Below, in pieces: positions 12,479 to 31,429 of a DNA stretch of 35,277 bases. The notes beneath the pieces were generated by a model. The model was not told the DNA's origin and did no database searches. It saw only the letters and a list, made by a program, of their open reading frames with translations. Position numbers and translations under genes: made by a program. Every line of letters starts with the position of its first letter. Positions within the stretch are counted from its first letter, which is position 1. This DNA is from Acidobacteriota bacterium (GTDB lineage Bacteria > Acidobacteriota > Blastocatellia > Pyrinomonadales > Pyrinomonadaceae): positions 1 to 35,277 of the forward strand of contig JAHEEZ010000001.1 in NCBI GenBank assembly GCA_024640445.1, in the 5' to 3' direction.

Positions 12479-14719
12479 ATGAACGACCACGAATCCAATG
12501 ACGAACTGATCGACAAACTGCTTGAAAAGATAGATCTGGAAGAACTCGTATCGAAGGTCATAGACAAGCAAAAGCAGGAGGCCTTGAAAGCCGCGCCACC
12601 GGAAGCATGGTTTTTGGGTCCGAAGGCGGAACACGGTGAGGTGTGGCTGGCGACGATCGACCATATCCTCCGCGACTACATTCACTGGCGCCGCAACTAC
12701 TTTCCCGAAGATCCGATCATCGTCGACCGCGAAAGACTTAAATCGCACGAGCCTTGGGTCGAGACCTTGAAAGGCGAGATCGATTCTATTCTGAACCAGC
12801 TGAAAGCGCACTTCCCTTTCTATTCCCCGCGCTACATCGCCCATATGATCTCGGAACAAACGTTTCCGAGCGTCGTCGGGTATTTCGCGGGAATGCTTTA
12901 CAACCCGAACAACGTGACGGAAGAGTCTGCACCGATCACGGCCTCTCTTGAACTGGAGGTCGGAAGGATGATCGCCGAAATGCTCGGCTACAATCCCAGG
13001 AAGGCGTGGGCGCATATCTGCTCTGGAGGAACGCTCGCGAACCTTGAAGCTCTATGGATCGCCAGGACCGTACAGTTCGTTCCTTTGATGGTCCGCGATT
13101 ACTGCGAATCTCATGACGTCCGTGACTTCGGGGCGAGAACGCCGGACGGAAACTCCGCACCGATATTGGAACTGTCCCCCGCTGAACTGATCGGCCTTCG
13201 GCCAAACGATTCGATAGGAATGATACGGGCGCTCGCCGAGCATATGATCGGCCGGGTCGGCGACGGAGTCTATTCGGACATCAACGCATTCATGGCGCAA
13301 AGCCGCTTTAACGTCGCGCATTCCGGACTTCATGCGATCTTCTCAGAAACCGGGCTCAAACCCGTGGTCTTCGTGTCAGAGGCGGCGCATTACAGCATTC
13401 GGAAAGCGGTAAATATTCTCGGTTATGGCGAGGACTGCGTCCGTTCCGTACCTGTCGAACCGCATTTCCGAATGAACGCAGACGTGCTGAAAGAAAAATT
13501 GTTTGGACTTGATGAAAACCTGTACGTCGCAGCGGTGATAGGCGTCGCGGGCACGACTGAAGAAGGCGCGGTCGATCCGATACATAAGATCAAGTTCATC
13601 CGCGACGAACTTGAGACCAAAAAGAACCGTTCGTTCTGGTTCCACATAGACGCTGCCTGGGGAGGCTATGTCAGGAGCGTATTCACGGGACTCGGCCTCG
13701 AAGAGGACGGCGACCCGCGAAAACCCCTAAAAGACATCTGCGAGGAATACAAGAACGCCGTCGCGATAAGTGAGGAAACCGAGGTCCGGCTGCTTCATTT
13801 CGAAGAGAATGGGATGAATGAGGGCCACAAGAAACTACATTTGGAGTGGGCGGATTTTGAGGTCTATTCTGCGTTCCTCGCGATGCCTGACGCAGATTCG
13901 ATCGCGGTCGATCCGCACAAACTCGGCTACATTCCTTATCCGGCAGGTGTGATCGCGTTCCAAAACAAGCTTGTGACTGAATTGGTGATCCAGAAGGCGC
14001 AGTACATTACCGATGAGATCGGCGGCATAAAGAGCACGGAAAAGGAAGCCGAAGTCACGGCAGTCGGGCCGTACATCATCGAGGGCTCAAAACCCGGCGC
14101 GGTCGCCGCCGCGTGCTGGCTGTCCCACAAAACGATCCCGCTTACATACCAGGGACACGGTCGTCTCATAAAGACGTCGCTTCTGAACACGCAAAAGCTT
14201 GCGCGTTACATCAATCTTCACAAGAAGCTGTTCGACACGATCGAATACGACCTGTACGGCCAGCTTAGGCCCGGGATTCAGAAATTCACATTTGAGATCC
14301 TCTGCGAGCCGGATACGAATCTTGTCTGTTTTCTTTGTGTTCCGATGAAAGATGACAAGGACGGAGAACTCGTTCGCGACGGCTACTTCAAACTCGCCGA
14401 GATCAACGAACTTAATGAAAGCATTTACAAGCGGGCGACGATCAGAAACCGGCCGGGAAAGAGAAAAACGCCATACTCGCAGGAATTCTTTGTCTCAAGA
14501 ACGATCCTGACACACGAACAATATCACCCGGGATCGATCTCCGGCCTTCTTGAAAAACTCGATTTCAGCATCTTCGAATACGAGAAGAATGGACTTTTCG
14601 TCCTTCGCTCCGTCGTGATGAACCCGTGGCACTTCCTCGCTGAAAAGCAGGGCAAGAACTATCTTTACGACTTCATCGTGAACCTCCACCAGATCGCCCG
14701 GGACATTCTGAATCCCTGA
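12479..14719 (+). CDS. pyridoxal-dependent (group II) decarboxylase, long form
   Basis: 746 aa; SGGTLANLEALWIAR, FHIDAAWGGYVRS, DPHKLGYIPYPAG (PLP lysine) motifs; C-terminal VVMNPWH. Confidence 0.88.
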   Translation: MNDHESNDELIDKLLEKIDLEELVSKVIDKQKQEALKAAPPEAWFLGPKAEHGEVWLATIDHILRDYIHWRRNYFPEDPIIVDRERLKSHEPWVETLKGEIDSILNQLKAHFPFYSPRYIAHMISEQTFPSVVGYFAGMLYNPNNVTEESAPITASLELEVGRMIAEMLGYNPRKAWAHICSGGTLANLEALWIARTVQFVPLMVRDYCESHDVRDFGARTPDGNSAPILELSPAELIGLRPNDSIGMIRALAEHMIGRVGDGVYSDINAFMAQSRFNVAHSGLHAIFSETGLKPVVFVSEAAHYSIRKAVNILGYGEDCVRSVPVEPHFRMNADVLKEKLFGLDENLYVAAVIGVAGTTEEGAVDPIHKIKFIRDELETKKNRSFWFHIDAAWGGYVRSVFTGLGLEEDGDPRKPLKDICEEYKNAVAISEETEVRLLHFEENGMNEGHKKLHLEWADFEVYSAFLAMPDADSIAVDPHKLGYIPYPAGVIAFQNKLVTELVIQKAQYITDEIGGIKSTEKEAEVTAVGPYIIEGSKPGAVAAACWLSHKTIPLTYQGHGRLIKTSLLNTQKLARYINLHKKLFDTIEYDLYGQLRPGIQKFTFEILCEPDTNLVCFLCVPMKDDKDGELVRDGYFKLAEINELNESIYKRATIRNRPGKRKTPYSQEFFVSRTILTHEQYHPGSISGLLEKLDFSIFEYEKNGLFVLRSVVMNPWHFLAEKQGKNYLYDFIVNLHQIARDILNP

Positions 14720-14721
14720 AA

Positions 14722-14765
14722 CCCGGCTTGCCAAATATGATTCAAATCATATTTGGCAAGCCGGG
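14722..14765. promoter_or_regulatory. 44-bp perfect inverted repeat containing an FNR/DNR-like box (14737-14750, ATGAT-TCAA-ATCAT) upstream of the respiratory operon
   Basis: CCCGGCTTGCCAAATATGATT-CA-AATCATATTTGGCAAGCCGGG; 21-nt arms match perfectly, 2-nt centre; begins 3 nt after the decarboxylase stop and ~70 nt before the next CDS. Confidence 0.7.
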
Positions 14766-14837: not shown

Positions 14838-16769
14838 ATGTTCCGGAGACGGGTGCTGATGCTTCAACTGAAAGTCCAGGTACCGGATGCCGAATATCAC
14901 CAAAATCTGATCTCGTGTCAGGTCGCCTGCCCTGTCCACACCGACGCGAGGGGTTACGTCCGTGCCATCGCGCGGGGTGATTTCGAAGAGGCTTACCTGA
15001 TTGCTCGCGGCCCAAATCCGTTCGCATCGATCTGCGGTCGTATCTGCGGCGCTCCGTGTGAAGCGGCGTGCCGGCGAGGCAAGGTCCCTAGGGTTGACGA
15101 TGACGGGAAGTTCGTCTCTGCGGACCGGCCGATCGCGATCCGCGCCCTAAAACGGTTCGCCTGTGAGGAAGCGGGCCCGGAATCCGTGCCGGTGCCGGAA
15201 CTCCTGGAAAAAGTAAAGAATTTTGTGCCGCCTGTCGCAGCCCGAGCTGATGAGATGGCGGCACTTCTGCGTTCGGGGATCAAAGGGTCTTTCGACAAGG
15301 CGGAAGGAAAGATCGCGGTCATCGGGGCGGGACCCGCAGGCTTGTCGGCCGCGCACGATCTCGCGCTGATGGGATTTTCTCCGGTCGTGTTCGAATCGGA
15401 ACCCGTTCCGGCGGGAATGCTGGCGCTGGGCGTCCCCGCATACAGATTGCCGCGCGAGATCATCGAGAAGGAAATAGATGTTATCCGGGCACTCGGAGTC
15501 GAGATCCGCTGCGGCGTCAGGATAGGCAAGGATATCTCGTTCGCCGACCTCAGAAAGGAATATGCGGCAGTGATAATTGCCGTCGGGGCTAAGTCTTCAA
15601 GGAGCCTCGGGCTGAAAGGTGAGAACGGCCCTGGTGTTTTCGGCGGGGTAGACATCCTTAGGTCGGTCTCGCTCGGAGAGAAGCTCGAACTCGGGAATGA
15701 GGTTGTGGTCATCGGCGGCGGCAATGTCGCCTATGACGTGGCAAGAACCGTGATCCGGCAGATCGCCTACGACACGGCCAGAACCGCGGCCAGGCTTGAG
15801 GGCACGTCGCGCGTCCGACTCGTTTCGCTGGAAAGCAGCGAAGAGATGCCGGCCGATACCGTTGAAATAGTCGAGGGCGACGAAGAGGGGATCGAGCGCC
15901 GCAACGGCTGGGGGCCCCTCGAGATCGTTCGAAATGGGGAAGGTATCGTAACCGGGGTCTCTTTCCGTAAATGTCTGAGCGTTTACGATGAATCGCACAA
16001 GTTCGCGCCAGTGTACGACGACAACGACCGGATGACAGTGGAATGCGACACGGTCCTTCTCGCCGTCGGCCAGTCGCCCGTGCTCGATTTTCTGAAGGAT
16101 GGGGGCGAGGACATCGCAATATCCGGCGGAGGATGGCCGCAGGTCGACGGAAACACACTTCAATCTTCCGCAAAGGATGTTTTCGTCACAGGAGACCTAG
16201 CGCACGGTACGAAGCTGCTCATCGACGCCGTAGCATCGGGAAAGGCGGCGGCTCGTTCGATCTACAGGAGTCTGACAGGAAAACGGCTGGAACAACACGC
16301 CGTCACCTCTCACATAGTTCTTGAAAGGTACCGTCGGGAACAGGGTTACGAGTCGATCCGCCGGGTCGGCGTCCCCGTCGCCGATCCCGGTGACCGGCTT
16401 TCGGAACCCGAAAAGATCGTTGAGACCGGTTATACGCCGGAGCTTGCCATGCGCGAAGCGTCGCGCTGTCTGGACTGCGGAGTAACGCCGGTCTTTGACG
16501 GCCTGCGCTGCGTCCTGTGCGGCGGCTGTGCGGATGTCTGTCCGACGCAGTGCCTGAAGCTGGTCTCCCTTTCCGACATTTTCCCGAGCAGCGAGATTGA
16601 CGATCTGATAGGGCAGGCGATCGGCATTGAAGCCGATCGGGACGCCAATTCCGCGATTCTCAAAGACGAGGACCGGTGCATCCGCTGCGCCCTTTGCGCC
16701 ACGCGCTGCCCGGTGGAGGCGATCACTATGGAAAGGGTCGCGTTTTCAACCAACTGGAGTTCAGTATGA
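14838..16769 (+). CDS. FAD-dependent NAD(P)H oxidoreductase (GltD/NfnB/DsrL-like) with N-terminal Fe-S and C-terminal 2x[4Fe-4S] ferredoxin domains
   Basis: CQVACPVHTDARGYVRAIARGDFEEAYLIARGPNPFASICGRICGAPCEAACRRGKV; GAGPAGLSAAHDLALMG; VVIGGGNVAYDVART; CVLCGGCADVCPTQC and CIRCALCATRCPVEA. Start may be 14859. Confidence 0.92.
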   Translation: MFRRRVLMLQLKVQVPDAEYHQNLISCQVACPVHTDARGYVRAIARGDFEEAYLIARGPNPFASICGRICGAPCEAACRRGKVPRVDDDGKFVSADRPIAIRALKRFACEEAGPESVPVPELLEKVKNFVPPVAARADEMAALLRSGIKGSFDKAEGKIAVIGAGPAGLSAAHDLALMGFSPVVFESEPVPAGMLALGVPAYRLPREIIEKEIDVIRALGVEIRCGVRIGKDISFADLRKEYAAVIIAVGAKSSRSLGLKGENGPGVFGGVDILRSVSLGEKLELGNEVVVIGGGNVAYDVARTVIRQIAYDTARTAARLEGTSRVRLVSLESSEEMPADTVEIVEGDEEGIERRNGWGPLEIVRNGEGIVTGVSFRKCLSVYDESHKFAPVYDDNDRMTVECDTVLLAVGQSPVLDFLKDGGEDIAISGGGWPQVDGNTLQSSAKDVFVTGDLAHGTKLLIDAVASGKAAARSIYRSLTGKRLEQHAVTSHIVLERYRREQGYESIRRVGVPVADPGDRLSEPEKIVETGYTPELAMREASRCLDCGVTPVFDGLRCVLCGGCADVCPTQCLKLVSLSDIFPSSEIDDLIGQAIGIEADRDANSAILKDEDRCIRCALCATRCPVEAITMERVAFSTNWSSV

Positions 16770-17245
16770 CTACCAAACCCGGAGAAAAGAGATCGCGTTT
16801 CGATCCGGATCCGATGCCCAGGCGGGATTTCCTCGGCCTCTCGGCGCTTGGCGCCGCGGCGGCCGCTCTCCTCTTCTCAATGTTCGGCATGCTCAGACTT
16901 CCGAAGGCGGCAGTACTTACTTCACCTTCGAAGAAGTTCAACGTATCGCTGCCGGACACACTGCCGGAAGGGGAGGCCTTTGTTCCCGAGGGAAGGTCGG
17001 TCGCGGTGTTCAAGGACACCGCCGGAGTTTTCGCTATCTCGACCACCTGCACTCACCTTGGCTGCGTCGTGAAACCGACCACCCAGGGTTTTGAGTGTCC
17101 TTGCCACGGTTCGCGATTCGCCAAGGACGGCGTAGTAACCAAAGGACCCGCGCCGAAGGCATTGCCGTGGCTTAAGATCACCGAAAGCGGAGGCACCTAC
17201 CAGGTCGACGAAGAGGATCAGGTGGCGCCGGGGACGAAGATATGA
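16766..17245 (+). CDS. Rieske [2Fe-2S] protein with Tat-type signal anchor
   Basis: ATGA overlap with the preceding gene; PRRDFLGLSALGAAAAALLFS Tat anchor; CTHLGC and CPCHGS Rieske motifs. Confidence 0.95.
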   Translation: MTTKPGEKRSRFDPDPMPRRDFLGLSALGAAAAALLFSMFGMLRLPKAAVLTSPSKKFNVSLPDTLPEGEAFVPEGRSVAVFKDTAGVFAISTTCTHLGCVVKPTTQGFECPCHGSRFAKDGVVTKGPAPKALPWLKITESGGTYQVDEEDQVAPGTKI

Positions 17246-18795
17246 GTTCGGAAGCCGCAAACCCTTCCGCCCTTCGCGGAATATGGGACAACCTGAAGAG
17301 CACTCCGAAGCGAATGTATGGGTCCGCGTTCCGGTCGGGATCTCCCAAGACTGACCGGACCCGTTCTTCGTTTGTGTTCGGCAACGTATTCCTTCACCTC
17401 CATTCAGTCAGGACCCACATATGGAGCCTGAAGTGGAGCACGACAATGGGGCTCGGGATCATGACCACGGCGGCGTTCTTCATTACGCTGGTCACCGGCA
17501 TACTCCTGATGTTCTATTACAAACCGTATCCGGATGTCGCCTATCAGTCGATGAAGGACATACACTTCGTCGTTCCGACGGGCCGGTTCATAAGGAACAT
17601 TCACCGCTGGGCCGCCAATCTCATGGTCGTTGCGGTGATACTCCATATGGCGAGGACGTTCTTTACCGCGTCCTACAGGAAGCCGAGAGAGTTCAACTGG
17701 CTTGTCGGATGGGGACTTCTTGTAACGACGCTCGCTCTGTCGTTCACGGGCTATCTCCTTCCCTGGGACCAGCTTGCATACTGGGCGATCACAATCGGCG
17801 CAAACATCGCACAGTCGCCGAGGGAGATCACCGACGCTCTTGGAATGACCCAGTATCTGGACATTGGCGGGCTGCAAAGGATGATCCTCCTGGGCTCCGA
17901 CGAGGTCGGGGCGGAAGCGCTCATACGCTTCTATCTCCTCCACGTAATGCTGCTTCCGATCGTCCTCTTGCTTCTTATGGCAGTCCATTTCTGGAGGATC
18001 AGAAAGGACGGCGGGATTGCCAGGCCCGACGACGCAGACGAGCTTGTGAGCACCGACCCGAAAGAGAACTACCCCGTCTTCACGGACGATCCCCAGAAGA
18101 CCTATCAACTCGCGGCGGTTGTAAAAGGAACGACTCCGGCGGTAGGAAACGGTCCTGAGCGCACGCTGCCCTCGATGCCCCACCTTTTCTATGCAGAGCT
18201 TGGCGTCCTTATGCTGACGACCTTGATATGCCTTGCGCTGGCTCTCATCTCTGACGCTCCTTTGAAGGAAATAGCGAACCCGATGATTCCGGAGAATCCG
18301 GCGAAGGCCCCCTGGTACTTCCTCGGACTTCAGGAGATCGTCTCGTTCTCGGCGTTCACGGGCGGGATTGGGATTCCCGCGCTCTGCTGGCTGGGACTGG
18401 GACTGATCCCCTTCCTGGACCGGGAGCGGTCAGGCTCCGGCAAGTGGTTCGGAGGGCCGGGGGGATGGACGCTGTTCAAATGGTCTTTGCTTGTCGGTTT
18501 CGGCGCCTCGGTCGGCATCGAGGCGTTTGCAATACACTTTGGCTGGCTAAGGGAGTGGTTCCCTTCAATTCCACAGCTCGCCATAACGTTTATTAATCCG
18601 GGAACGGTACTGACCCTGATCTACGCACTCTTTTCGGTCTGGACCGTACGCCGGTACAACTCCACCAGGGCCGGCGCGGTCGCGCTGTTCACCTGTTTCC
18701 TTTGCGGTTTTGTCGTGCTGACCGTTGTCGGCACTTACTTCCGGGGGCCAAACTGGGAGTTTTACTGGTCGCCGTCGGATTGGCCGGGGCACTAG
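17242..18795 (+). CDS. cytochrome b (fused cyt b / subunit IV-type) of a bc-type complex
   Basis: ATGA overlap with Rieske gene; RNIHRWAANLMVVAVILHMARTF heme-ligand helices, FTGYLLPWDQLAYWA, NPAKAPWYFLGLQEIV (PEWY-region variant), multiple TM helices. Confidence 0.94.
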   Translation: MSSEAANPSALRGIWDNLKSTPKRMYGSAFRSGSPKTDRTRSSFVFGNVFLHLHSVRTHIWSLKWSTTMGLGIMTTAAFFITLVTGILLMFYYKPYPDVAYQSMKDIHFVVPTGRFIRNIHRWAANLMVVAVILHMARTFFTASYRKPREFNWLVGWGLLVTTLALSFTGYLLPWDQLAYWAITIGANIAQSPREITDALGMTQYLDIGGLQRMILLGSDEVGAEALIRFYLLHVMLLPIVLLLLMAVHFWRIRKDGGIARPDDADELVSTDPKENYPVFTDDPQKTYQLAAVVKGTTPAVGNGPERTLPSMPHLFYAELGVLMLTTLICLALALISDAPLKEIANPMIPENPAKAPWYFLGLQEIVSFSAFTGGIGIPALCWLGLGLIPFLDRERSGSGKWFGGPGGWTLFKWSLLVGFGASVGIEAFAIHFGWLREWFPSIPQLAITFINPGTVLTLIYALFSVWTVRRYNSTRAGAVALFTCFLCGFVVLTVVGTYFRGPNWEFYWSPSDWPGH

Positions 18796-18798
18796 ATT

Positions 18799-20454
18799 AT
18801 GAAAAAGAATAAGTATCTGCTGCTGTTTTCCAGCATTGGGGTGTTCCTTCTTTTGGTCTACGCCGCGGCTTCCGAGAATTTCTTTAAGGAATGGCAGGCG
18901 ATCCAGGCTGAGGCCAAGTCTTCGGAGGGACCGATCGATGTCCGTCTGCGGCAGATAATCAATCCGTCCCTCAAGACCACTGACCGGTGCGTCTCCTGCC
19001 ATGTCGGAATGGCGCCGGGCGAGACGGTCGTATCCCATCTGCGTGTCGCCGCGCCTCACAAGCCGGTCGTGCATTCGCCCATCGAGATGGGCTGTACGAC
19101 CTGTCATGCCGGTCAGGGCCTCGCTACTGAAAGACTGGACGCTCACGGAGACGTGGATTTCTGGCCGGAACCGATGCTTCCGGCGAAGTACGCCTACGCA
19201 AGTTGCGGGAGGTGCCATACACCTTTGGAAGTGCCGAACACCAAACGGCTAGAGGCGGCAAAGAATACGTTCGAGCGACTGGATTGCTACGCCTGTCACA
19301 GACTCGACGGAAGGGGCGGAACGATCCGTCCGGGCGGCAAAACAGGGATGGAAGGTCCCGACCTGTCCCACACCGGGATCAAGGGATTCAATAAGGAATG
19401 GTACGAAGGCCATCTGGCGAAGAAGCAGGCGGACACGAGCGGGCTATGGGAGAACGCTTTCGCCGAGATCGGAGAAGGTGACCGCGCATTGCTGGATCAG
19501 TTTCTTGGCCTTCAGATGGGTGCCCCGACCCTGATCGCGGCAAAGGCTGAATACAATTCAGTCGGATGCGCCGGATGCCACATAGTCGGGAATTTCGGAG
19601 GCGATACGGGTGTCGATCTCTCGCAGGTCGGGGAAAAGGACCCGAACCGGCTTTCATATATCAACGTCCCGGGGAGCAAGACGTTCCCAAACTGGATCGC
19701 ACAGCACTTCCGGCTTCCCGTTTCCACGGTGGCAGGCTCGCAGATGCCTGCGCTCGGACTGTCGGGAGATCAGATCGACCTTCTGACAATGTATATCCTC
19801 TCGCTGAAGAGAAGAAGCCTTCCTGACATCTGGCTTCCAAAAGACAGGGTCAAAGCGATGAGATTTGGCGCCCGCGAGTTCACGACGGATGGCGAGACCA
19901 TCTATACGGCGGTCTGTTCCGGCTGTCACGGTGCCGGCGGCAACGGAATGAGGTACCCGGGCCTGCCTCCATATCCCTCGATCACGAACCGCGATTTCCT
20001 CGAGCTCGCATCCGACGAATTCGTCTTTCAAACGATAAAACAAGGCAGGCCGGGCAGGCCGATGCTTCCCTGGGGCGTCCGGCAGAACGGATTCAGCGAT
20101 GAAGAGATCCGCTCGGTCGTGACCTATATTCGGGCGCTCGGCGGCATTGACGCCGTTCCCGACGAAAAGCCGGCCCGATGGGCGGGAGGCGATGGAAAAC
20201 TGGGATCCAGGCTTTTCGCCGCCAACTGCGCCGGCTGCCATGGTGCGATGGGCGGCGGAGGCGAGGGACCCGCTTTGAGCAACAAGAACCTGCTCGCCAG
20301 CGCCACTGACACGTTCCTGTACGAAACGATAAGCAAAGGCAGGCGCGGAACGGTGATGAAAGGCTTCACGGAACCGTCTCCTGTCCGAAAGTCGCTTACC
20401 GGGTACGAGATCGAATCGATCGTCACATATCTGCGTTCGATGAACGCGAAGTAG
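18799..20454 (+). CDS. membrane-anchored multiheme c-type cytochrome (7 CXXCH)
   Basis: CXXCH motifs: CVSCH, CTTCH, CGRCH, CYACH, CAGCH, CSGCH, CAGCH; N-terminal TM anchor; tandem class I cyt c domains in the C-terminal half. Confidence 0.92.
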   Translation: MKKNKYLLLFSSIGVFLLLVYAAASENFFKEWQAIQAEAKSSEGPIDVRLRQIINPSLKTTDRCVSCHVGMAPGETVVSHLRVAAPHKPVVHSPIEMGCTTCHAGQGLATERLDAHGDVDFWPEPMLPAKYAYASCGRCHTPLEVPNTKRLEAAKNTFERLDCYACHRLDGRGGTIRPGGKTGMEGPDLSHTGIKGFNKEWYEGHLAKKQADTSGLWENAFAEIGEGDRALLDQFLGLQMGAPTLIAAKAEYNSVGCAGCHIVGNFGGDTGVDLSQVGEKDPNRLSYINVPGSKTFPNWIAQHFRLPVSTVAGSQMPALGLSGDQIDLLTMYILSLKRRSLPDIWLPKDRVKAMRFGAREFTTDGETIYTAVCSGCHGAGGNGMRYPGLPPYPSITNRDFLELASDEFVFQTIKQGRPGRPMLPWGVRQNGFSDEEIRSVVTYIRALGGIDAVPDEKPARWAGGDGKLGSRLFAANCAGCHGAMGGGGEGPALSNKNLLASATDTFLYETISKGRRGTVMKGFTEPSPVRKSLTGYEIESIVTYLRSMNAK

Positions 20455-20498
20455 AAATCCCGCGGAGGGCCGCGGAGCCGTATGAACGGGGCTAAATT

Positions 20499-23400
20499 AT
20501 GAAGAACGAACTTTCAAGACGTGAATTCCTCGCCAGGATCTCGGCTGCGGGATTCGGTGCTTTCGTGCTGTCCTCGACAAATGCCTGGGGCCTGGACAAC
20601 GTTACGAACCCGCTTGCGGTTTATCCGAACCGGGACTGGGAAAAGGTGTACAGGGACCTTTGGAATTACGACTCGAAGTACACATTCAGCTGTGCGCCGA
20701 ACGACACACACAACTGCCTGCTGAACGCTTACGTTCGACAGGGGGTCGTGACGAGGATCGGACCGACAATGCGTTACGGCGAGGCGACCGACCTTCTCGG
20801 AAACCAGGCGACCCACCGCTGGGACCCGCGTGTGTGCCAAAAGGGGCTCGCTCTGACCCGAAGATTCTACGGCGACCGGCGCGTCAACCAGTGCATGGTA
20901 CGCGCGGGGTTCAAACGCTGGCACGACGACGGGTTCCCCCGCGGAAGCAATGGCAAACCGGACCCTGATTATTTCCAAAGGGCACGGGACGAGTGGGTCA
21001 GGGTTTCCCACGACGAGGCGGCCGCAATCGTGGCGGCGGCACTGAAGAACATTGCCGAAACATACTCGGGGGAAGAAGGGATTCGCCGGCTGAAAGAGCA
21101 GGAGTACGACCCCGCGACCATCGAGACGATGGGGGGAGTCGGCACCCAGGTGATGAAGTTCAGGGGCGGGATGCCGCTGCTTGGGATGACGAGGGTGTTC
21201 GGAATGTACCGGATGGCCAATGCAATGGCGCTTTTGGACGCAGCGGTCAGGAAGGTCGGTCCAGACAAGGCTTTGGGCGGACGCGGCTTCGACAATTATT
21301 CATGGCATACCGACCTGCCCCCGGGCCACCCGATGGTCACGGGTCAGCAAACCGTTGAGTTCGACCTGAACTCCGTCGAACACGCGAAGACGGTGGTGGT
21401 ATGGGGAATGAACTGGATAACCACCAAGATGCCCGATGCCCACTGGCTGACCGAAGCAAGATTGAAAGGTACGAGGATCGTCGTGATCGCCTGCGAATAC
21501 TCGGCAACGGCGACAAAGGCGGACGACGTTGTAGTCGTCAGGCCGGGCACAACACCGGCTCTCGCGCTAGGGTTCTCAAATGTCATCCTCCGCGAAAAGC
21601 TTTATGACGAAGAGTTCATAAAACAGTGGACAGATATGCCTATCCTCGTCCGGATGGACGATCTGACCTACCTGAGGGCAAAGGACGTCTTCGGCGGCGA
21701 TCTGGCGGCAATGAAGACAACCACGGTCTTAAAAGAGGGGCAGCAGCCACTTCCTCCCGCGAAACAGGATTCCAACAACATCGTGCCCGAGAAACTGCGT
21801 ATGGAGTGGGGCGATTACCTCTGGTGGGACACGGAAAGCGATTCGCCGAAACCGCTGAACCGCGATGATGTCGGCAAGAATTCGACGATCGGGGACGCGA
21901 AACTCGAGGGCGCGGTAAACGTGAAGCTTGCGAACGGAAAGACCGTCCGCTGCAGGCCGGTGTTCGACCTGGTCAAAGAATATGCCGCCCATTTCGACCC
22001 GAAAACGACCGAAGAGCTGACCTGGGCGCCCGCAAAGGCGATCGAGGAACTCGCGAGGTTGTTTGCAAAAGACCCGGGGACGACGCTGTTCGCCATCGGA
22101 ATGGGACCCAACCAGTTCTTCAACAACGACAACAAGGACCGCGACATATTTCTGCTTGCCTCGCTCACGGGAAACATGGGCAAGATAGGCGGCAACGTCG
22201 GCTCTTACGCGGGCAATTACAGGGTCTCCCTGTTCAACGGCGCGCCTCAGTACATTAACGAGAATCCGTTCGATATTGAGCTTGATCCGGCAAAGCCGGC
22301 AAGGCCGAAACAGTACTGGAAGGCGGAGTCCGCTCACTTCTATAACCACGAGGACCATCCGCTCAGGGTCGGCAAGAAGCTTCTCACCGGAAAGACGCAC
22401 ATGCCGACGCCGACCAAATCGCTGTGGTTCGCGAATGCGAACTCTATTCTCGGCAACGTCAAATGGCATTACAACACCGTGGTAAACGTTCTGCCGAAGA
22501 TCGAGATGATCGCCGTCCAGGAATGGTGGTGGTCTACCTCGTGCGAATGGGCAGACGTCGTTTTCGGCGTTGATTCGTGGGGCGAGCTCAAGCATCCAGA
22601 CATGACGGCGTCGGTTACGAACCCGTTCCTCATACTGTTTCCGCGGACGCCGATCGAACGAATATTCAATACCGTGGGAGACATCGACGTATTCGCGCTC
22701 GTTTCCTCCAAGCTCGGCAAACTGACCGGCGACAAGCGGTTCGAGGACTACTGGAAGTTCGTCAGGGAGGACAAGACGGATGTCTACCTTCAAAGGATCC
22801 TTGACCAATCGACGAACACGAAGGGATACAGTTTCAAGGACCTCCACGACAAGGCGCTTGAAGGCGTTCCCGCGCTGATGAACAGCAGGACAACGCCGAA
22901 ATCGGTCGGCTATGACCAGATCACGGACTCAACGCCCTGGTATACGAAGAGCGGGCGCCTGGAATTCTACAGGGAAGAACCGGAGTTCATCGAAGCGGGA
23001 GAGAACCTGCCCGTCCACAGGGAACCGGTCGACTCAACCTTCCTGGAACCGAACATCATCATCGCACCGAAACACGAGGCCCTGCGGCCCTCCGGACCGG
23101 AGGCCTACGGGGTGGCGCGCGACGACCTGACCTGCGACACGAGATGCGGCAGAAATGTCGTGATGACCTGGCCGGAGGCAAAGGCCACCCAGCATCCGAG
23201 GATAAAGGAAGGCTACAAGTTCATTTTCCACACTCCGAAATACAGGCACGGAGCGCATACGACACCGATCGACACCGATATGGTGGCGGTGCTGTTCGGT
23301 CCCTTCGGAGACATCTACCGCCACGACAAGCGGAGTCCTTTCGTCGCTGAAGGATATGTGGATATGAATCCGGCTGATGCCCAGGAACTTGAGATCGCCG

Positions 23401-23939
23401 ACGGCGATTATGTCTGGATCGACGGCGATCCCGAGGACAGGCCGTTCCGTGGATGGCAGACGAACAGCAAGGATTACGAGTTCGCCCGCCTGCTGTGCAG
23501 AGCGCGCTACTATCCCGGAACTCCGAGGGGGGTCACCAGGATGTGGTTCAACATGTACGCGGCCACACCTGGCTCTCAGCAGGGTCAGAAAGAACGTGAG
23601 GACGGACTCGCGAAGAATCCCCGAACCGGATACCAGGCGATGTTCAGGTCCGGTTCCCATCAGTCGGCCACAAGGGGATGGCTCAAGCCCACATGGATGA
23701 CCGATTCACTCGTTCGCAAGGGGATCTTCGGACAGTCGATAGGAAAAGGGTTCCTGCCTGACGTTCACTGTCCGACAGGCGCGCCCCGCGAAGCGATCGT
23801 CAAGATCACAAGGGCGGAGGCCGGGGGTATCGGCGGCGAAGGTCTTTGGAGACCGGTGAAGCTTGGAATCAGGCCCAGAGCGGAATCGGAAGAAATGAAG
23901 AAGTACCTTGAGGGCGGCTATTTGGCCAAGGAAGCGTAA
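20499..23939 (+). CDS. Tat-exported molybdopterin oxidoreductase catalytic subunit, type II DMSO reductase family, NarG/NXR-like nitrate reductase alpha
   Basis: Tat signal [46 protein letters not shown] (FS0 region); [19 protein letters not shown] (Mo-Asp region equivalent to NarG YSWYCDLPP); [56 protein letters not shown]; 1146 aa. Confidence 0.92.
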
Positions 23940-24040
23940 ATGGCGCTGTGACGTCATCGACGAACTTTTTCACATAGTGCGGCGAACGGTCCAGGGTGAG
24001 CCGGAAGCGCAAATTCAACTTACCACCCGGAGAAAAAGAT

Positions 24041-25186
24041 ATGGCACGCGTAAACAACTGGCAATTGGGAAGAGAGATGTCCTACTGGTATCCGGAGAGC
24101 CGTCCTGACAAACAGTTCGCGGCGGTTTTCGACATCAACAAATGCATAGCCTGCCAGACCTGTACGCTGGCCTGCAAAACGACATGGACATCCGGCAAAG
24201 GCCAGGAGTACATGCTCTGGAACAATGTTGAAACAAAACCATACGGTTTTTATCCGCTCGGCTGGGACTTGAAGCTTCTTGAGATGCTTGACGGTCAGAA
24301 ATGGGACCAGAGCGGCGAAAAGCCCGTGTACGGCGGAAGCACGATCTTCGAGTCGGCTCCGGCCGGCGAAAGAGTGCTGGGCTGGCGTCCCGAGGAAGAG
24401 GATTATGCCTACCCGAACGTCGGAGAGGACGACTGCGCGGGACAGATCGACGGCGGCACGAGTTTTCAGATGCCCCACATGGCATGGTTTTACTACCTTG
24501 CGCGGATCTGCAACCACTGCACGTATCCGGCCTGTCTCGCAGCGTGTCCGCGGGGATCGATCTACAAACGGCCGGAAGACGGAATTGTACTTGTAGATCA
24601 GGGCCGGTGCCGCGGTTACCAGGAGTGCGTCCGGGGCTGCCCCTACAAGAAGGTCTTCTTCAACCCGATGAGCGGCACCTCTGAGAAGTGCATAGCGTGC
24701 TACCCGAAGATGGAACAGGGCCTTCAGCCGCAGTGTTTCGTGAACTGCATCGGAAAGATCAGGATGGCGGGCTGGATATCCAAGCCTGAGGAGGCACGCG
24801 AAGACAATCCTATAGATTATCTCGTCCACGTGCGCAAGATCGCCCTTCCGCTATTTCCCCAATTCGGACTGGAGCCGAACGTTTACTACATTCCCCCGAT
24901 CCACGTCCCGACATCGTTCACACGGCAGATGTTCGGACCGGGCGTCGACGACGCTATCGCTGCGTACAAGAAGGCGATGAGTGAGGGAGACGATGACCTG
25001 GCGGGTCTGCTTGGATTATTCGGCTCGACCGAAGAGGTTATGTCGCGGTGGACAAGGAACGGTGAGACCATAACCGGTTTTAACGACAAGGGTGAGGAGG
25101 CCGTCCGCGTGCCGCTGAGAGAGCCGGTGAACATAAGGCCGGCGTACGACAAGCTCTACCAGATCACCCGTGTCAATTGCCCGTAA
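24041..25186 (+). CDS. nitrate reductase / NXR-like beta subunit, 4 Fe-S cluster electron-transfer protein (NarH-like)
   Basis: Start 24041 (RBS ggagaaa) rather than 23996; [101 protein letters not shown]. Confidence 0.94.
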
Positions 25187-25203
25187 CAGCGAGGGAGTTT
25201 GAA

Positions 25204-26064
25204 ATGAAGACACTTTTTAAGCTGACTGTAGTTTGCATGATCGCCGTGGCAGTCCTTGCCGCCTGCCGAAGCCGTACCATTTCGCCTTCGGAAGTGGTGG
25301 CGGTCACGGGTCAGACGATCACGGATGACCCCGCGGCAGGGGTCTGGTGGGGGCTTCCATACCATCCCGCCAAGCTGATACTTCAGGATCTTGTCGAACC
25401 CCGGTTGATGGAGCCGTCCACACAGGAAGTCGAGGTTACCGCCATGACCGACGGGAAAACCGTCGCGTTCAGGCTTGAATGGATCGACGACTCGCAAGAT
25501 GACCTTCCGGGACCTCAGAAATTCATCGACGGGTGCGCGGTCCAGCTGCCGCAAAAGATGGAAACGAATGTGCCCGCCCCTCAGATGGGTGAAGATGCCA
25601 AGACAGTTGAGATCGCCTATTGGCGAGCCGACTGGCAGGCGATCGTCGACGGCCGGGTGGACGAGATCACAAGCCTCTATCCGAATGCGTCGGTAGACCA
25701 CTACCCGTTCCGAGCTGAATCGCTGAAGAAGGATCCCAAGGCCCAGGGTGAAATGGAGCAGAGATACGCACCGGCAAGGCGGCTCGGCAATTCCAGATCA
25801 GGACCGCGCAAACAGCCTGTGGAGGATATGCTCGCGGAAGGTCCGGGAACGCTGACGCGCACCAATGCCGTGTCACGGGGCCGGGGCGTCAAGACGCCGA
25901 AAGGCTGGGCGGTCGTTATCATCAGGCCTCTGCCCGAAGGCATCAGCGTGCAGAAGGGCACGAACATCGCGTTCGCTGTCTGGCAGGGCGCCCGCAGGGA
26001 GACCGGGGCGAGAAAGATGCGGACGGGATGGATACCCTTGATATTGAAGGAGCCGGGAAAATGA
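25204..26064 (+). CDS. ethylbenzene dehydrogenase-related heme b gamma subunit, predicted lipoprotein
   Basis: Start 25204; signal MKTLFKLTVVCMIAVAVLAAC (lipobox LAAC); YAPARRLGNSRSGPRKQPVEDMLAEGPGTLT and ARKMRTGWIPLILKE typical of EbdC/DdhC/ClrC-type subunits. Confidence 0.85.
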   Translation: MKTLFKLTVVCMIAVAVLAACRSRTISPSEVVAVTGQTITDDPAAGVWWGLPYHPAKLILQDLVEPRLMEPSTQEVEVTAMTDGKTVAFRLEWIDDSQDDLPGPQKFIDGCAVQLPQKMETNVPAPQMGEDAKTVEIAYWRADWQAIVDGRVDEITSLYPNASVDHYPFRAESLKKDPKAQGEMEQRYAPARRLGNSRSGPRKQPVEDMLAEGPGTLTRTNAVSRGRGVKTPKGWAVVIIRPLPEGISVQKGTNIAFAVWQGARRETGARKMRTGWIPLILKEPGK

Positions 26065-26714
26065 AAGAAAAACCGAACATGGATGCAAGGCTTGCCGGCC
26101 TCTTGGTTGAGGCGGCGGAATGGCGGATGATCAGCCTGCTGTTCGATTGTCCCGTAGAGGAATGGTCGAAGGACGTCGCGGAACTCGCCGGCGAGATCCG
26201 CGACCCGAAGCTCCAAAAGGCCTCGAAACGGGCTCTCGAAGAAGCGACGGAAGGAACGTACCATTCCATTTTCGGGCCCGGCGGCCCGGCACCCGGCCGC
26301 GAGGTAAGCTACCGAACGTGGGTCCAGCCAGGCTATCTGATCTCGGAGATCACGGCGTTCTACAATGCTTTCTCCTTTACGCCCCGTACCCTTGAAACGC
26401 CGGATCACGTGTCGGTCGAGGCCGGCTTTATATCGTATCTGAAACTGAAGGAGGCTTTTGCACTTTCCTTCGCCGACTCCGAAAACGCAGGGATCACGGC
26501 GGCCGCGGCCCGGACCTTCACCGAATCGCATTTGGTGAAGATCGCCGAACCCCTCGCCAAGTCCCTGTCGGCCTCGGGCGTCGACTACCTGTCAATCGCA
26601 GCGGAGACCCTGCTTGAGCGCACCGGTCCCGATAAGGACAAGAAGGTCCGCGAGTTCCTGCCTGTCCTTTCGGATTCCGAAGACGAGATATTCGAATGCG
26701 GCATTACACCGTAG
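26061..26714 (+). CDS. TorD/NarJ-family molybdoenzyme chaperone
   Basis: ATGA overlap with gamma gene; EEATEGTYHSIFGPGGPAPGREVSYR...EITAFYNAFSF...PDHVSVEAGFISYLKLKEA, a TorD/DmsD/NarJ-like pattern. Confidence 0.88.
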   Translation: MKEKPNMDARLAGLLVEAAEWRMISLLFDCPVEEWSKDVAELAGEIRDPKLQKASKRALEEATEGTYHSIFGPGGPAPGREVSYRTWVQPGYLISEITAFYNAFSFTPRTLETPDHVSVEAGFISYLKLKEAFALSFADSENAGITAAAARTFTESHLVKIAEPLAKSLSASGVDYLSIAAETLLERTGPDKDKKVREFLPVLSDSEDEIFECGITP

Positions 26715-27641: not shown

Positions 27642-28379
27642 CTAGAACGGAAGCAGGGGATATACCATCCGTTCGAGCTCAAGCGCCTTCGGGAAGAGTA
27701 TGTTGTTTTCGAGATGTATGTGCTGATGAAGATCGCGCTCAAGCGCCTCGAGTCTCGCGAACAGCGCGGTGAAGCTCGGGCATGCCCAGTCCGGAAGATC
27801 GTAATCGGCGGTGACCGTCCTCATTCGTTTGAGAACTTCGCCCGCCCGGTCGTGCTCTGCCGACATCACCTGGATGGGTCCCCGTACCGACCCCAAAGGC
27901 GGATCGCCGGCCGAAGGTGAGTTTCCGCGGGACGCAAGTTCTCTCACATAAGGAAACAAGATGGCTTCCTCCTTTCTCATATGCGAGTCAAGGTCTGTAA
28001 AGAGCACACCTGTCAGATGCTTCAGGATCATCAGAGAGGGATGAGTCTCCCCATGTCTTTCCGCCACCTTCTCCATAAGCGGCGTAAGCTGAATCATCTC
28101 CGTCCGCGTGTAAGCGTGATGGGTCTCGAGAATATGGTCGACCAGATCCTCAAGTGAATACTCCGTGAATCGTTCAGCCGCTTCAAATGAGCTGTTATCG
28201 GAAAGCCTGTCCAACCGCTCCTCGATTTCTTCCGGTGTTACCCCGGCATCGCCGCAGGCCTCGGCGAAAGGCTTTCTCCCTCCGCAGCAGTAATCGATAT
28301 GATATTCCTCAAAAACCCTTGTGGAAAGCGGCATCTCAAGGGCTATTTCGCGAACTGTCTTGGTTTGTAATCCTTCCAT
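27642..28379 (-). CDS. ric: iron-sulfur cluster repair di-iron protein (RIC/ScdA/YtfE, DUF542 + hemerythrin)
   Basis: KTVREIALEMPLSTRVFEEYHIDYCCGGRKPFAEAC (DUF542) plus hemerythrin-like His/Glu motifs (HHAYTR, LDSHMRKEEAILFPYV, LHQHIHLENNILFP). Confidence 0.94.
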   Translation of the reverse strand: MEGLQTKTVREIALEMPLSTRVFEEYHIDYCCGGRKPFAEACGDAGVTPEEIEERLDRLSDNSSFEAAERFTEYSLEDLVDHILETHHAYTRTEMIQLTPLMEKVAERHGETHPSLMILKHLTGVLFTDLDSHMRKEEAILFPYVRELASRGNSPSAGDPPLGSVRGPIQVMSAEHDRAGEVLKRMRTVTADYDLPDWACPSFTALFARLEALERDLHQHIHLENNILFPKALELERMVYPLLPF

Positions 28380-28414: not shown

Positions 28415-29878
28415 CTAGAAACTATACGCCGCGCCGAGATTGATATGGCCCGCGTCGCGGTCGCCGGTAAGAAAATAGGTGGTGTGGAATCTCCGGAACT
28501 CGCCGCCTATTGAAAGTTGCGGTATCGGCTTGAAGATCACGACGAATGCGTAAGACAGATTTCTGGCTCGCCAGTTCCTTGGCGTAACGCTTAAGAGATC
28601 GTCGTTTTCAGGATCATCAATTCCCGCGGACCCGTATAATGACAGCCGGTCCCGGAGAACAGGGGGTGTAAAGGACACCTGCGCCCAACCGCCGCTCGTG
28701 CGAATCCCACGAACGGTTGCCGGCGGCGACAAACCGGCCTGGGAAACTCCGTAATCCGGGTTGTATCCCTGAAAGATCGCTCCCTGCAAGCCACCCAGAT
28801 TCCTGCCGAAGAACGCTTCGCCCGTGATTCCGATCCGTTTGGCAAGCGGGAAATTCCAATCGAGCGCCAACGCATAGGAGGGAATTCCTTCGGATCCGAC
28901 CTTGGCACGGCCAAGGTGGCCTGACACTGCGAGCGAGCCCGGTTTCCCGGTTCCAAACCAATTCTTTCCCGTATAGGCGAGACGGCTTTCGAATGAGGGA
29001 ACGCCGGACCTGGAAGCCGCGCCGGGCTGCAGCAGAAACGGTGAATCAGCACCAGATGGAAAGTCTCCCGAGGTCGGGGCGAGCACCGCTCCCTGAAAAA
29101 GGAACCGGCCACCCGAGAACTTTCGTTCGACCCTCACCTGGGGCAGCCGCGACCAAAGATTTCCGGAGGCGGCAAATTGAGGGATGGCGGCGGCGGCGAT
29201 CGAAGCTGGATTCAGGGGAGCAAACACAACCCAATCCTGTCCGACCGTAAGTGAGGTCTTTTCCCAATCAAATTTGAGCTTGGCGACCCTCAGGCGGACG
29301 ACCCCGAAATTCTCGCCGACGCCGACGGCAGGCAAACCACCGTAGAAATCCGCCTCGACCACTCCGGTCAACGACGAGTTGCCAATCCGGCCCCCTTCAA
29401 CACGAACGCCGAATCTGGTCTGCCGCAAACTGGCGCCTGAATTCGACTGATCCGAAGATGTCGCCCAAAGCGGTACGTCAGTATTGTTTGTTCCCGAAGT
29501 ATTGCCGAAAGCGTTGAAATAGACGGTGCCGTATGGGATCAGCTTGAGGTTGTTTCCGAGGCTGATTCCAATCTGCTGCGCAGCTTGCGCGGTGGATGTC
29601 TTTGAGCCGGCGTCAACCGCTCCATCTTTAGCACCACCCTTATCGCCGTTAGCGACTTCTTCAGCTTTAGCGGCTTCTTCAGCAGGTATAGCTTTCGAAT
29701 CTTTCGCTATCTCCGTTTTGAGTCTTTCAAGTTCCTCGCGGAGCGCAGACACCTGCCCCTCCATCACCTTCAACCGCTCAAGAAGTATCTGTTCGGTTGG
29801 AGAGGCAGGTGCTTGGGCTTCGATGCCGTATGAAAATGCGGCGGTCATCAGGATCACCGCGAAAAAGATTCTTCGCAT
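28415..29878 (-). CDS. porin-like outer-membrane beta-barrel protein with N-terminal coiled coil
   Basis: Start 29878 (MRRIFFAVILMTAAFSYGIEAQA signal peptide); coiled coil ERLKVMEGQVSALREELERLKTEI; alternating aromatic/Gly-rich beta segments; C-terminal GAAYSF ends in Phe. Confidence 0.8.
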   Translation of the reverse strand: MRRIFFAVILMTAAFSYGIEAQAPASPTEQILLERLKVMEGQVSALREELERLKTEIAKDSKAIPAEEAAKAEEVANGDKGGAKDGAVDAGSKTSTAQAAQQIGISLGNNLKLIPYGTVYFNAFGNTSGTNNTDVPLWATSSDQSNSGASLRQTRFGVRVEGGRIGNSSLTGVVEADFYGGLPAVGVGENFGVVRLRVAKLKFDWEKTSLTVGQDWVVFAPLNPASIAAAAIPQFAASGNLWSRLPQVRVERKFSGGRFLFQGAVLAPTSGDFPSGADSPFLLQPGAASRSGVPSFESRLAYTGKNWFGTGKPGSLAVSGHLGRAKVGSEGIPSYALALDWNFPLAKRIGITGEAFFGRNLGGLQGAIFQGYNPDYGVSQAGLSPPATVRGIRTSGGWAQVSFTPPVLRDRLSLYGSAGIDDPENDDLLSVTPRNWRARNLSYAFVVIFKPIPQLSIGGEFRRFHTTYFLTGDRDAGHINLGAAYSF

Positions 29879-29903
29879 TGTTTCCCTCTTGGTTCCGACT
29901 GTT

Positions 29904-30266
29904 TCAAGCGCCCGGGAAATTCTCGAATCTGAGAACGGTATTGTGACCTTTGTCGTCACGTATCTCCAGGAAATCGTCCTCGCTCAACACGCCAAGTTCG
30001 AATCGCAACGATTTAGCGTTCGAGATCATATGGGTAAAAGGCCTTTCGTCCGGATCGGACTTTCCTCCGAATATTATCTCGACATCGGTTTTCCCGCTCT
30101 TGGTCTCGACAGTCACCGATTTAATGGGCAGCCCGTCTTCGATCCAAAAATCCTGCGTTCCCCTGTCTTCCTCAACAAAAACCGCCAGTCTTGTGGGACG
30201 ACCCCTGTTTCGTGCCAGAAACAGGTCAAGGAAACGCGACCATTCGTGTGTCGTCTTCGTTTCCAT
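29904..30266 (-). CDS. DUF5335-like small protein
   Basis: Start 30266 with RBS AAAGGAG 8 nt upstream (longer ORF to 30371 less likely); HEWSRFLDLFLARNRGRPTRLAVFVEEDRG...NTVLRF resembles DUF5335. Confidence 0.65.
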   Translation of the reverse strand: METKTTHEWSRFLDLFLARNRGRPTRLAVFVEEDRGTQDFWIEDGLPIKSVTVETKSGKTDVEIIFGGKSDPDERPFTHMISNAKSLRFELGVLSEDDFLEIRDDKGHNTVLRFENFPGA

Positions 30267-30784: not shown

Positions 30785-31429
30785 CTAACGGACGAAATCT
30801 TCGAGAGGTCCAGCGCTGTCAATGAAGATCTTTCCGTGAACGATCCGCACAAGTTCCTTGTCGGCAAGCTTACGGATCGTGCGGATCGCGGTTTCTGTAG
30901 CGAGGCCCGCCATCTCGGCGATATCCTGGCGCCTTAGGGCTATTCTGACCGGCCAGCCCTGTCTTGAGCCCGATGCGAGCTTGAGGAGCACCTTACCGAC
31001 CCGAACTTCCGAAGACAGGGTGCTGTGGATCTGAACTGAGGATGTACGGTCCCTCAGCAGACCGCACATTTGGTCGAGAATCGCAGACTTGAACTCATCG
31101 GATTCATCCATCAATCGTCCAAACTCCCGTCTCGACAACAGAAGGAGTTCGGAAGCCTCCATTGCAACGGCAGTCGCCGGAAATCTCTTTCCATCGAGCG
31201 CCGGCGGTATCGCAAAGACCTCTCCCTCGGAAAATATCCCGATGATGACTTCTTTTCCGTCGGCGGGATAGCGAACCAGCTTGATCCGGCCTCTGGAAAC
31301 GATGGGGAGAAATTCAGCCTTCTCCCCCTCGGTAAAGACGCACTGGTCCTCGCCAAACGTTCGGACACTGCACGAACCCACGACCGTTGTTTTCAGTCCG
31401 GGACTTATGCTTTGTAAGAGTGAATTCAT
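30785..31429 (-). CDS. Crp/Fnr family transcriptional regulator
   Basis: cNMP-binding-like domain (FTEGEKAEFLPIVSRGRIKLVRYPADGKEVIIGIFSEGEVFAIPPAL) and HTH (LRRQDIAEMAGLATETAIRTIRKLADKELVRI). Confidence 0.93.
   Translation of the reverse strand: MNSLLQSISPGLKTTVVGSCSVRTFGEDQCVFTEGEKAEFLPIVSRGRIKLVRYPADGKEVIIGIFSEGEVFAIPPALDGKRFPATAVAMEASELLLLSRREFGRLMDESDEFKSAILDQMCGLLRDRTSSVQIHSTLSSEVRVGKVLLKLASGSRQGWPVRIALRRQDIAEMAGLATETAIRTIRKLADKELVRIVHGKIFIDSAGPLEDFVR

Follow-up and report, generated by a model that had tools for sequence, protein, structure and literature searches.

A nitrite-oxidoreductase-like molybdoenzyme encoded with its own NAD-linked Rieske/cytochrome b module in Acidobacteriota, and reuse of the module beside other reductases

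Introduction

Kuenenia stuttgartiensis encodes two NAD(P)-linked Rieske/cytochrome b complexes, Kuste4569-4574 and Kustd1480-1485, which have been proposed to form NAD(P)H by quinol bifurcation, although this is unproven there too (PMC12954380). Their role has been argued from anammox bacteria, and for one of the two no high-potential partner has been proposed: Kuste4569-4574 contains a HAO-like octaheme protein, whereas Kustd1480-1485 is without an assigned acceptor (PMC12954380). Here we describe an operon in which a related module directly precedes the genes of an outward-facing molybdoenzyme that resembles nitrite oxidoreductase (NXR). It lies in a stretch of 35,277 nucleotides, the window, which is contig C43 of an acidobacterial metagenome-assembled genome (MAG) with kinship to Pyrinomonadaceae/Blastocatellia (3.7 Mb, 91% complete). 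No description of such a combination of an NXR-like molybdoenzyme with an NAD-linked Rieske/cytochrome b complex, or of a modular pattern across acceptors, was found in the literature searched.

Several other systems share parts of this architecture. The haloarchaeal nitrate reductase pNar, as encoded on a Haloferax larsenii plasmid, also has Rieske and cytochrome b genes directly upstream of an outward-facing NarGH, together with a gamma subunit of the ethylbenzene dehydrogenase (EBDH) type and a TorD-type chaperone, but it has neither the flavoprotein nor the multiheme cytochrome. The motif of the iron-sulfur cluster FS0 in pNar is HxxxCxxxC (PMC8301774), which differs from CxxxDxxxC in the window. 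In the nitrate-respiring Methanoperedens, the nar operon likewise encodes an exported NarGH, NarJ and a gamma subunit (Orf7), but genes for heme-copper oxidase subunit II (HCO II) and NapH take the place of the flavoprotein/Rieske/cytochrome b module, and a separate Rieske/cytochrome b complex with multiheme cytochromes has been proposed as the electron donor (PMC4683180). In Campylobacter, the menaquinol-cytochrome c reductase QcrABC feeds a periplasmic nitrate reductase; unlike the module described here, it is shared between acceptors (Nap/Tor) and has no NAD-linked subunit, and NapA is a different molybdoenzyme (PMC6195509).

The operon and its inheritance

The operon of eight genes was confirmed and is conserved, and its genes co-evolve as one unit. 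According to open reading frame (ORF) calls and profile families, all eight genes lie on a single strand between positions 14838 and 26714:

14838..16769, + strand: flavoprotein, GltD/NfnB-like, NAD(P)-linked, with FAD (GltD/Pyr_redox_2 family; best PDB match and closest PDB relative NfnABC, 9bov/9bp5)
16766..17245, + strand: Rieske [2Fe-2S] protein with a twin-arginine translocation (TAT) signal (family match, conserved ligands, junction re-read)
17242..18795, + strand: cytochrome b, b6-like plus C-terminal part in one chain of 517 aa (family match, conserved His)
18799..20454, + strand: heptaheme c-type cytochrome with 7 CXXCH motifs (family match, conserved motifs)
20499..23939, + strand: TAT-exported molybdopterin alpha subunit (match to Kuenenia NXR-A, 7b04; alignment; tree)
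23996..25186, + strand: NarH/NxrB-like beta subunit (family match, conserved Cys)
25204..26064, + strand: gamma subunit, a lipoprotein like EBDH gamma and NXR-C (EB_dh family; family match, conserved residues, junction re-read)
26061..26714, + strand: chaperone of the NarJ/TorD type (family match, junction re-read)

An earlier note, made from the sequence alone, had listed eight co-directional genes joined by ATGA overlaps or short gaps, and the reading of ORFs, families and junctions confirmed this. The overlaps lie between the flavoprotein and Rieske genes (16766-16769), the Rieske and cytochrome b genes (17242-17245) and the gamma and NarJ genes (26061-26064). Gaps of 3 nt separate cytochrome b from the heptaheme cytochrome, 44 nt the latter from alpha, 56 nt alpha from beta and 17 nt beta from gamma. 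When the junctions were re-read, the start of the Rieske gene was placed at 16766, the open ORF from 16676 being overlong, and the starts of gamma and NarJ were set at 25204 and 26061.

Relatives in named genomes were taken as the best 80 of 475, with taxon names as given by the MAG labels. They comprise 58 Acidobacteriota, 16 Planctomycetota and 1 unplaced relative, as well as single Actinomycetota, Myxococcota, Verrucomicrobiota, Poribacteria and Hydrogenedentota labels; many stem, by their titles, from groundwater, wastewater and reactor MAGs. The closest named alpha (89%) is found at L127, in a MAG labelled Aridibacter famidurans, where the same decarboxylase and cation diffusion facilitator transporter lie upstream as in the window. 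The order flavoprotein, Rieske, cytochrome b and multiheme cytochrome upstream of alpha was seen in 55/56 named loci with at least 6.5 kb of DNA upstream of alpha, and beta, gamma and NarJ are present in all 62 loci with sufficient downstream DNA, so that the arrangement is not due to chance. In a survey of 396 genomes of the phylum, in which alpha and cytochrome b were counted at 70% identity or more, alpha occurred in 27 genomes and cytochrome b in 26 of these (G258 as a split match) and in 0 of the 369 others (Fisher 1e-38 on 25/1/0/370, with relatedness ignored). The alpha distances over 41 loci correlate with those of the flavoprotein (0.82), cytochrome b (0.82), the multiheme cytochrome (0.80) and the Rieske protein (0.72), and similarly with those of beta (0.84) and gamma (0.83), the highest value among 500 permutations being 0.25. 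In inheritance, module and molybdoenzyme are thus linked to a degree similar to that of alpha and beta. Gene order, co-occurrence and distances all show both to be one inherited genetic unit, which supports the earlier interpretation in part.

Close alpha homologues without the module had been named in that note as what would refute a single complex, and they are largely missing. One exception, L142, is taken up below. In G335 the module is absent beside an alpha of 75% identity, but we set this case aside as a counter-example, since it has a truncated alpha in an assembly of 74% completeness. The deepest branch (L056, L057 and L213, alpha 56-60%) also lacks the module; L057 begins at a contig end.

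The molybdoenzyme

The alpha subunit matches Kuenenia NXR-A (7b04) over its whole length (residues 5-1142, E 8e-251), whereas the match to PcrA reaches E 5e-50, and PcrA, EBDH and NarG are all far poorer than NXR-A. With Kuenenia NXR (KsNXR, 7b04) the operon shares full-length alpha homology, a beta subunit, an EBDH-like heme b gamma subunit and an FS0 site of 3 Cys and 1 Asp (PMC8387239). The FS0 residues C65/D69/C73/C113 as well as N68 and D272 align to KsNXR C67/D71/C75/C115, N70 and D275 (PMC8387239). However, the identity to characterised NXR is only ~40%, and a tree built from 48 alphas separates the window clade (26 rows) from the NXR clade including Kuenenia (17 rows), each with 100% SH-aLRT, which places the window alpha outside the NXR clade as sister to Nitrospira/anammox NXR; this tree was calculated without Nitrospira, Methanoperedens, Thermogutta and Hydrogenobaculum sequences and with a partial Kuenenia alpha. 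The NXR-clade loci examined here have no flavoprotein/Rieske/cytochrome b module beside alpha, unlike the window. NarG of H. larsenii groups with PcrA-like enzymes, and a kinship of the window alpha with pNar was rejected by the tree. The earlier view of the operon as a hybrid of the pNar and Kuenenia types thus holds for the architecture only, because the window alpha is sister to NXR while H. larsenii NarG falls with the PcrA-like enzymes.

The beta subunit has 15 invariant Cys, and gamma has an invariant M137 and K280 (numbering from the ORF start at 25177). In EBDH the heme b ligands are a Met and a Lys, and by analogy M137 and K280 would ligate the predicted heme b of gamma. A related alpha, a four-cluster beta, an EBDH-type gamma and a NarJ/TorD chaperone are the features of type II dimethyl sulfoxide (DMSO) reductases; the best NCBIfam matches are TIGR03479/03478/03477/03482, all under the curated cut-offs. 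The enzyme is not a canonical NarGHI: its alpha carries a TAT signal, and in agreement with the earlier note neither a NarI-type cytochrome b nor a nitrate/nitrite transporter is found among the window ORFs scanned.

Further molybdoenzyme genes came up in the searches. A contig from a genome of the Brocadiia class (L215/L216, G401 C92) bears two alphas ~15 kb apart, one of the window clade (66%) and one of the NXR clade (42%). A Natronococcus occultus plasmid (L206:14001-17479) holds a haloarchaeal alpha, with 48.5% identity to the window alpha, that matches in two pieces; it has no annotated gene and a discontinuous frame, lies beside beta and TorD genes without a module, and was omitted from the final alpha tree. 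At L001 (G000 C353), the top molybdopterin match of the genome is a frame of 920 aa interrupted by a single in-frame TGA, and it may encode a selenocysteine formate dehydrogenase.

The electron-supply module

Rieske protein, cytochrome b, multiheme cytochrome c and an NfnB/GltD-like NAD(P) oxidoreductase are encoded together in the window, as in the Kuenenia complexes, and the likeness drawn earlier to these complexes extends from the subunit content to finer details (PMC12954380). NfnABC is also the closest relative of the Kuenenia NAD(P) oxidoreductase Kuste4570 (PMC12954380). The window flavoprotein, which presumably forms the cytoplasmic arm of the complex, has 17 conserved Cys (C27,31,66,70,74,78,544,547,558,561,564,568,572,614,617,620,624), each kept in at least 80 of 81-82 sequences. 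Whereas two [4Fe-4S] clusters had been assumed at first, these residues would suffice for about four Fe-S clusters, which could form a chain from the b hemes to the FAD. The YRR motif of GltD/NfnB is replaced by an SLE segment, whose Glu is conserved in the aligned sequences, and this replacement suggests that the flavoprotein uses NAD rather than NADP.

In the Rieske protein, C96, H98, C101, C112, C114 and H115 are invariant (numbering from 16763). It carries Ser117 together with Phe119, and the same Ser/Phe pair is found near the cluster of Kustd1480. The Rieske potentials of the Kuenenia complexes are unusually high, at +303 and +335 mV, the latter being that of Kustd1480 (PMC12954380).

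Cytochrome b possesses the expected heme b ligands (conserved H121, H135, H234 and H249), and its Qo motif is APWY instead of PEWY. Two additional N-terminal His, H52 and H59, are invariant, and H52, which is kept in nearly all module types, is a candidate counterpart of Kuste4571 His43 and Kustd1481 His62, the N-terminal His of the Kuenenia complexes that could bind the proposed interface heme. Cytochrome b is b6-like in Kuenenia and in the window, but that of the window is a single chain of b6 plus C-terminal part, and it lacks the Cys that binds heme cN in b6f: in the window clade this position is occupied by Met or another residue, whereas the Cys is present in L151/L153 and in Brocadiia complexes. 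Further differences from Kuenenia are that the multiheme cytochrome of the window is a heptaheme protein and that the NXR-like ABCD genes follow. This heptaheme cytochrome begins with a hydrophobic anchor, and two domains of the class I cytochrome c type make up its C-terminal part. All 7 CXXCH motifs and the candidate distal His/Met are conserved in 92-94 loci.

One module beside several terminal enzymes

The flavoprotein/Rieske/cytochrome b/multiheme module is a cassette that is reused with different reductases, which is new here. It was surveyed by a search with cytochrome b alone and subsequent reading of the neighbourhoods, and partner labels beyond the loci scanned with Pfam and NCBIfam rest on BLAST to scanned examples. 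Besides NXR-like ABCD, modules adjoin a PcrA-like enzyme of alpha, beta and gamma subunits plus its chaperone (L155-L158; best PDB 4ydd/5e7o), the cbb3 oxidase subunits CcoN and CcoO (L159, L160, L164, L167, L169-L173) and nitrous oxide reductase, NosZ (L161, L162, L174, L180, L181, and L168 by BLAST only), with NosD present at several of the NosZ loci. L166 and L214 were counted as NXR-type; both are cut by contig ends, and the partner of L214 would lie beyond its contig end. Modules at L165, L175-L179 and L182-L187 are without an identified enzyme; in the series L175-L187 none was assigned because several larger proteins there have no Pfam match or are regulators.

In the trees of flavoprotein and cytochrome b, the cbb3, NosZ and PcrA modules form one clade each (at least 99%), but the modules associated with NXR are spread over at least two distinct clades. 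L053 and L154 have a distant module version with a split cytochrome b, yet their alphas belong to the window clade. One origin of the NXR-associated modules is rejected by the approximately unbiased (AU) test (p 7e-50 for the flavoprotein, 2e-5 for cytochrome b), and by these trees the NXR-like enzyme has acquired a module at least twice. Six genomes (G105, G243, G275, G051, G063, G230) contain both an NXR-type and a cbb3-type module.

Two of the other clusters deserve a description of their own. In Acidobacteriota, the conserved cluster Rieske-cytochrome b-heptaheme cytochrome-CcoN-CcoO-flavoprotein (the nine cbb3 loci given above) represents a cbb3-type oxidase with its own NAD-linked Rieske/cytochrome b module. 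The NosZ clusters at L161, L162, L174, L180 and L181 are preceded by flavoprotein, Rieske, cytochrome b and a pentaheme cytochrome, and the flavoproteins at these loci have one CXXCH motif.

Function and direction

We regard it as fairly probable, judging from the genes and their conservation, that the product of the operon is a molybdenum nitrate reductase outside the cytoplasm (ABC, with D as its chaperone), served by an electron-supply complex of its own. The subunits would assemble into a Rieske/cytochrome b complex with the NAD-linked flavoprotein on the cytoplasmic side and the heptaheme cytochrome on the outer side. Menaquinol would be oxidised at the Qo site and its electrons split two ways: one would pass from the Rieske protein via the heptaheme cytochrome, the gamma heme b and the Fe-S clusters of beta and alpha to the molybdenum and on to nitrate, while the other would reach NAD+ by way of the b hemes and the flavoprotein. 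With the route split at the Qo site, nitrate reduction would pull the formation of NADH from menaquinol. At standard potentials, the transfer of two electrons from menaquinol to nitrate yields -97 kJ and that of two to NAD+ costs +47 kJ, which gives a balance of about -50 kJ per NADH. The NADH-forming step taken alone, which we infer by analogy, is tentative, and its chance falls short of even.

The direction is indicated by the company that module and operon keep. The module partners identified are, without exception, reductases that act on high-potential acceptors, and strong NrfA matches occur in 16/24 alpha-positive but only 8/31 alpha-negative relatives (p 0.003, or p 0.02 when restricted to the same family and class); in L039 and L059, an NrfA gene follows downstream at a distance of a few kb from the operon. 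Taken together, these two points favour nitrate reduction fed by menaquinol, and the recurrent RIC and Crp/Fnr neighbours also count in favour of a nitrate-reducing system. The likely role, as far as gene content tells, is the conversion of nitrate to nitrite and in many hosts onward to ammonium, with nitrite oxidation being less likely. The deepest members of the window clade fit into this picture: L056:8950-18285 and L057:387-9220 have A-B-NarJ-gamma or A-B-gamma followed by COX2-like and Fer4_5 (NapH-like) genes, which is the arrangement of the Methanoperedens nar operon, so that one electron-delivery module appears to have been swapped for another.

A number of observations weigh against this interpretation. 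NrfA is absent from the window's own genome (91% complete), and a RuBisCO-family match occurs in 4 of the 27 alpha-positive genomes. Enzymes of the NXR type work reversibly, and a function as nitrite oxidases has been proposed for the NXR-like genes of Planctomycetota (PMC10732223). The NAD-forming direction is argued by analogy with the Kuenenia proposal. At L142, that is G421, an alpha of 68% stands without a module at the locus, and the 5.4 Mb assembly has only a distant b6 match elsewhere. Finally, a search of the window and 57 relatives for an Fnr-type site gave none upstream of the window operon and two elsewhere; the Fnr site was dropped as evidence for regulation.

The flavoprotein could instead oxidise NADH, with electrons entering at the b hemes or the quinone site and quinol leaving via the Rieske protein, in an NADH:nitrate respiration with Q-cycle pumping that makes no NADH. 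The order of module and alpha and the neighbourhoods speak for this arrangement just as for bifurcation, and GltD/NfnB-type flavoproteins can work in either direction. Moreover, nitrate respiration through Rieske/cytochrome b proteins proceeds without NADH formation in haloarchaeal pNar and in Campylobacter (PMC4683180, PMC6195509). However, such a complex would duplicate complex I, the Kuenenia Rieske potentials of +303 and +335 mV fit a very low heme bP (PMC12954380), and the window Rieske protein shares the Ser/Phe pair with Kustd1480; we think that NADH oxidation is possible, if on balance unlikely. Alternatively, alpha might be a working nitrite oxidoreductase that passes electrons from nitrite to the heptaheme cytochrome, most of them going on to oxygen and some uphill via the b complex to NAD+ in a lithotrophic reverse flow. 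The NXR sister clade with its common FS0, Asn and Asp features, the heme-copper oxidases in all 27 genomes checked and the assignments proposed for Planctomycetota (PMC10732223) are in line with this, but PcrA-like, cbb3 and NosZ reductases are further partners of this module, NrfA is enriched, RuBisCO is absent from 23/27 alpha-positive genomes, the window's included, and the deepest members resemble the Methanoperedens nitrate reductase operon. On these grounds a working nitrite oxidoreductase appears improbable, and the reverse flow from nitrite to NAD(P)+, which the earlier note had left open beside nitrate reduction, has become the less likely direction.

Type II DMSO reductases are catalytically diverse, and with an alpha only ~40% identical to characterised NXR the enzyme might act on another oxyanion or compound, such as chlorate, selenate or, as in EBDH, a hydrocarbon, with nitrate being secondary. 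We consider this quite improbable, as the substrate-coordinating Asn is conserved (N68) where EBDH has Ile (PMC8387239), the genomic context contains RIC and NrfA, and neither chlorite dismutase nor an EBDH pathway is indicated among the window genes scanned. It could also be argued that two separate machines, a soluble nitrate reductase and a quinol:cytochrome c complex of general use, merely stand under one regulator and have no dedicated partnership, and indeed ABC(D) occurs without the module in L142 and in the deepest members. Partner-specific module clades, the two recruitments and the separate NXR- and cbb3-type modules within each of the six genomes argue otherwise, so that we give mere co-regulation little credence.

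If the nitrate-reducing, bifurcating interpretation is extended to all partners, copies of one cassette would have been wired anew to the reductases of nitrate, (per)chlorate/nitrate, oxygen and nitrous oxide, each of these reductases driving NADH formation from menaquinol directly. This is a tentative idea towards which we lean less than away from it, but if it is true, cells would hold several quinol-bifurcating complexes side by side, one per acceptor. Here the module partner is explicit, with four different partners in non-anammox organisms, so that the bifurcation idea could be tested through an exchange of the acceptor. In Acidobacteriota and their neighbours, an outward-facing nitrate-reductase-like enzyme is joined to its own NAD-linked version of complex III, and the close copies of this complex beside oxygen, nitrous oxide and chlorate-type reductases hint at a plug-in power unit, which might obtain the energy for NADH formation from whichever acceptor is served. 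The operon would explain nitrate respiration without NarI in common soil and wastewater Acidobacteriota and Planctomycetota. It also calls for caution: where MAGs of this kind carry NXR-like genes, these probably encode nitrate reductases and are not markers of new nitrite oxidisers.

Neighbouring features of the window

Three further features flank the operon, and RIC and Crp/Fnr genes are recurrent operon neighbours in the family:

14722..14765, strand-less: perfect 20-bp inverted repeat with a 4-nt loop, between the decarboxylase gene and the operon (folding energy)
27642..28379, - strand: RIC/ScdA di-iron Fe-S repair protein (recurrent neighbour; nitrosative stress context)
30785..31429, - strand: Crp/Fnr-type regulator (recurrent neighbour)

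The hairpin at 14722-14765 occurs only once in the genome of the window and has a folding energy of -36.2 kcal/mol (z -8.64, 0/200 shuffles equally good). It is likely the operon boundary towards the upstream decarboxylase gene, but its role as a terminator is a guess because it has no T-run. This upstream gene (12479-14719) encodes a 746-aa pyridoxal phosphate-dependent decarboxylase, a relative of tyrosine decarboxylase under the curated NCBIfam cut-offs, and is syntenic in L127. A probable outer-membrane porin-like protein is encoded at 28415-29959; it has no Pfam match, and homologues lie near the operon in several relatives. At the window end (33877-35067), a second multiheme c-type cytochrome stands beside a ResB-like cytochrome c maturation gene.

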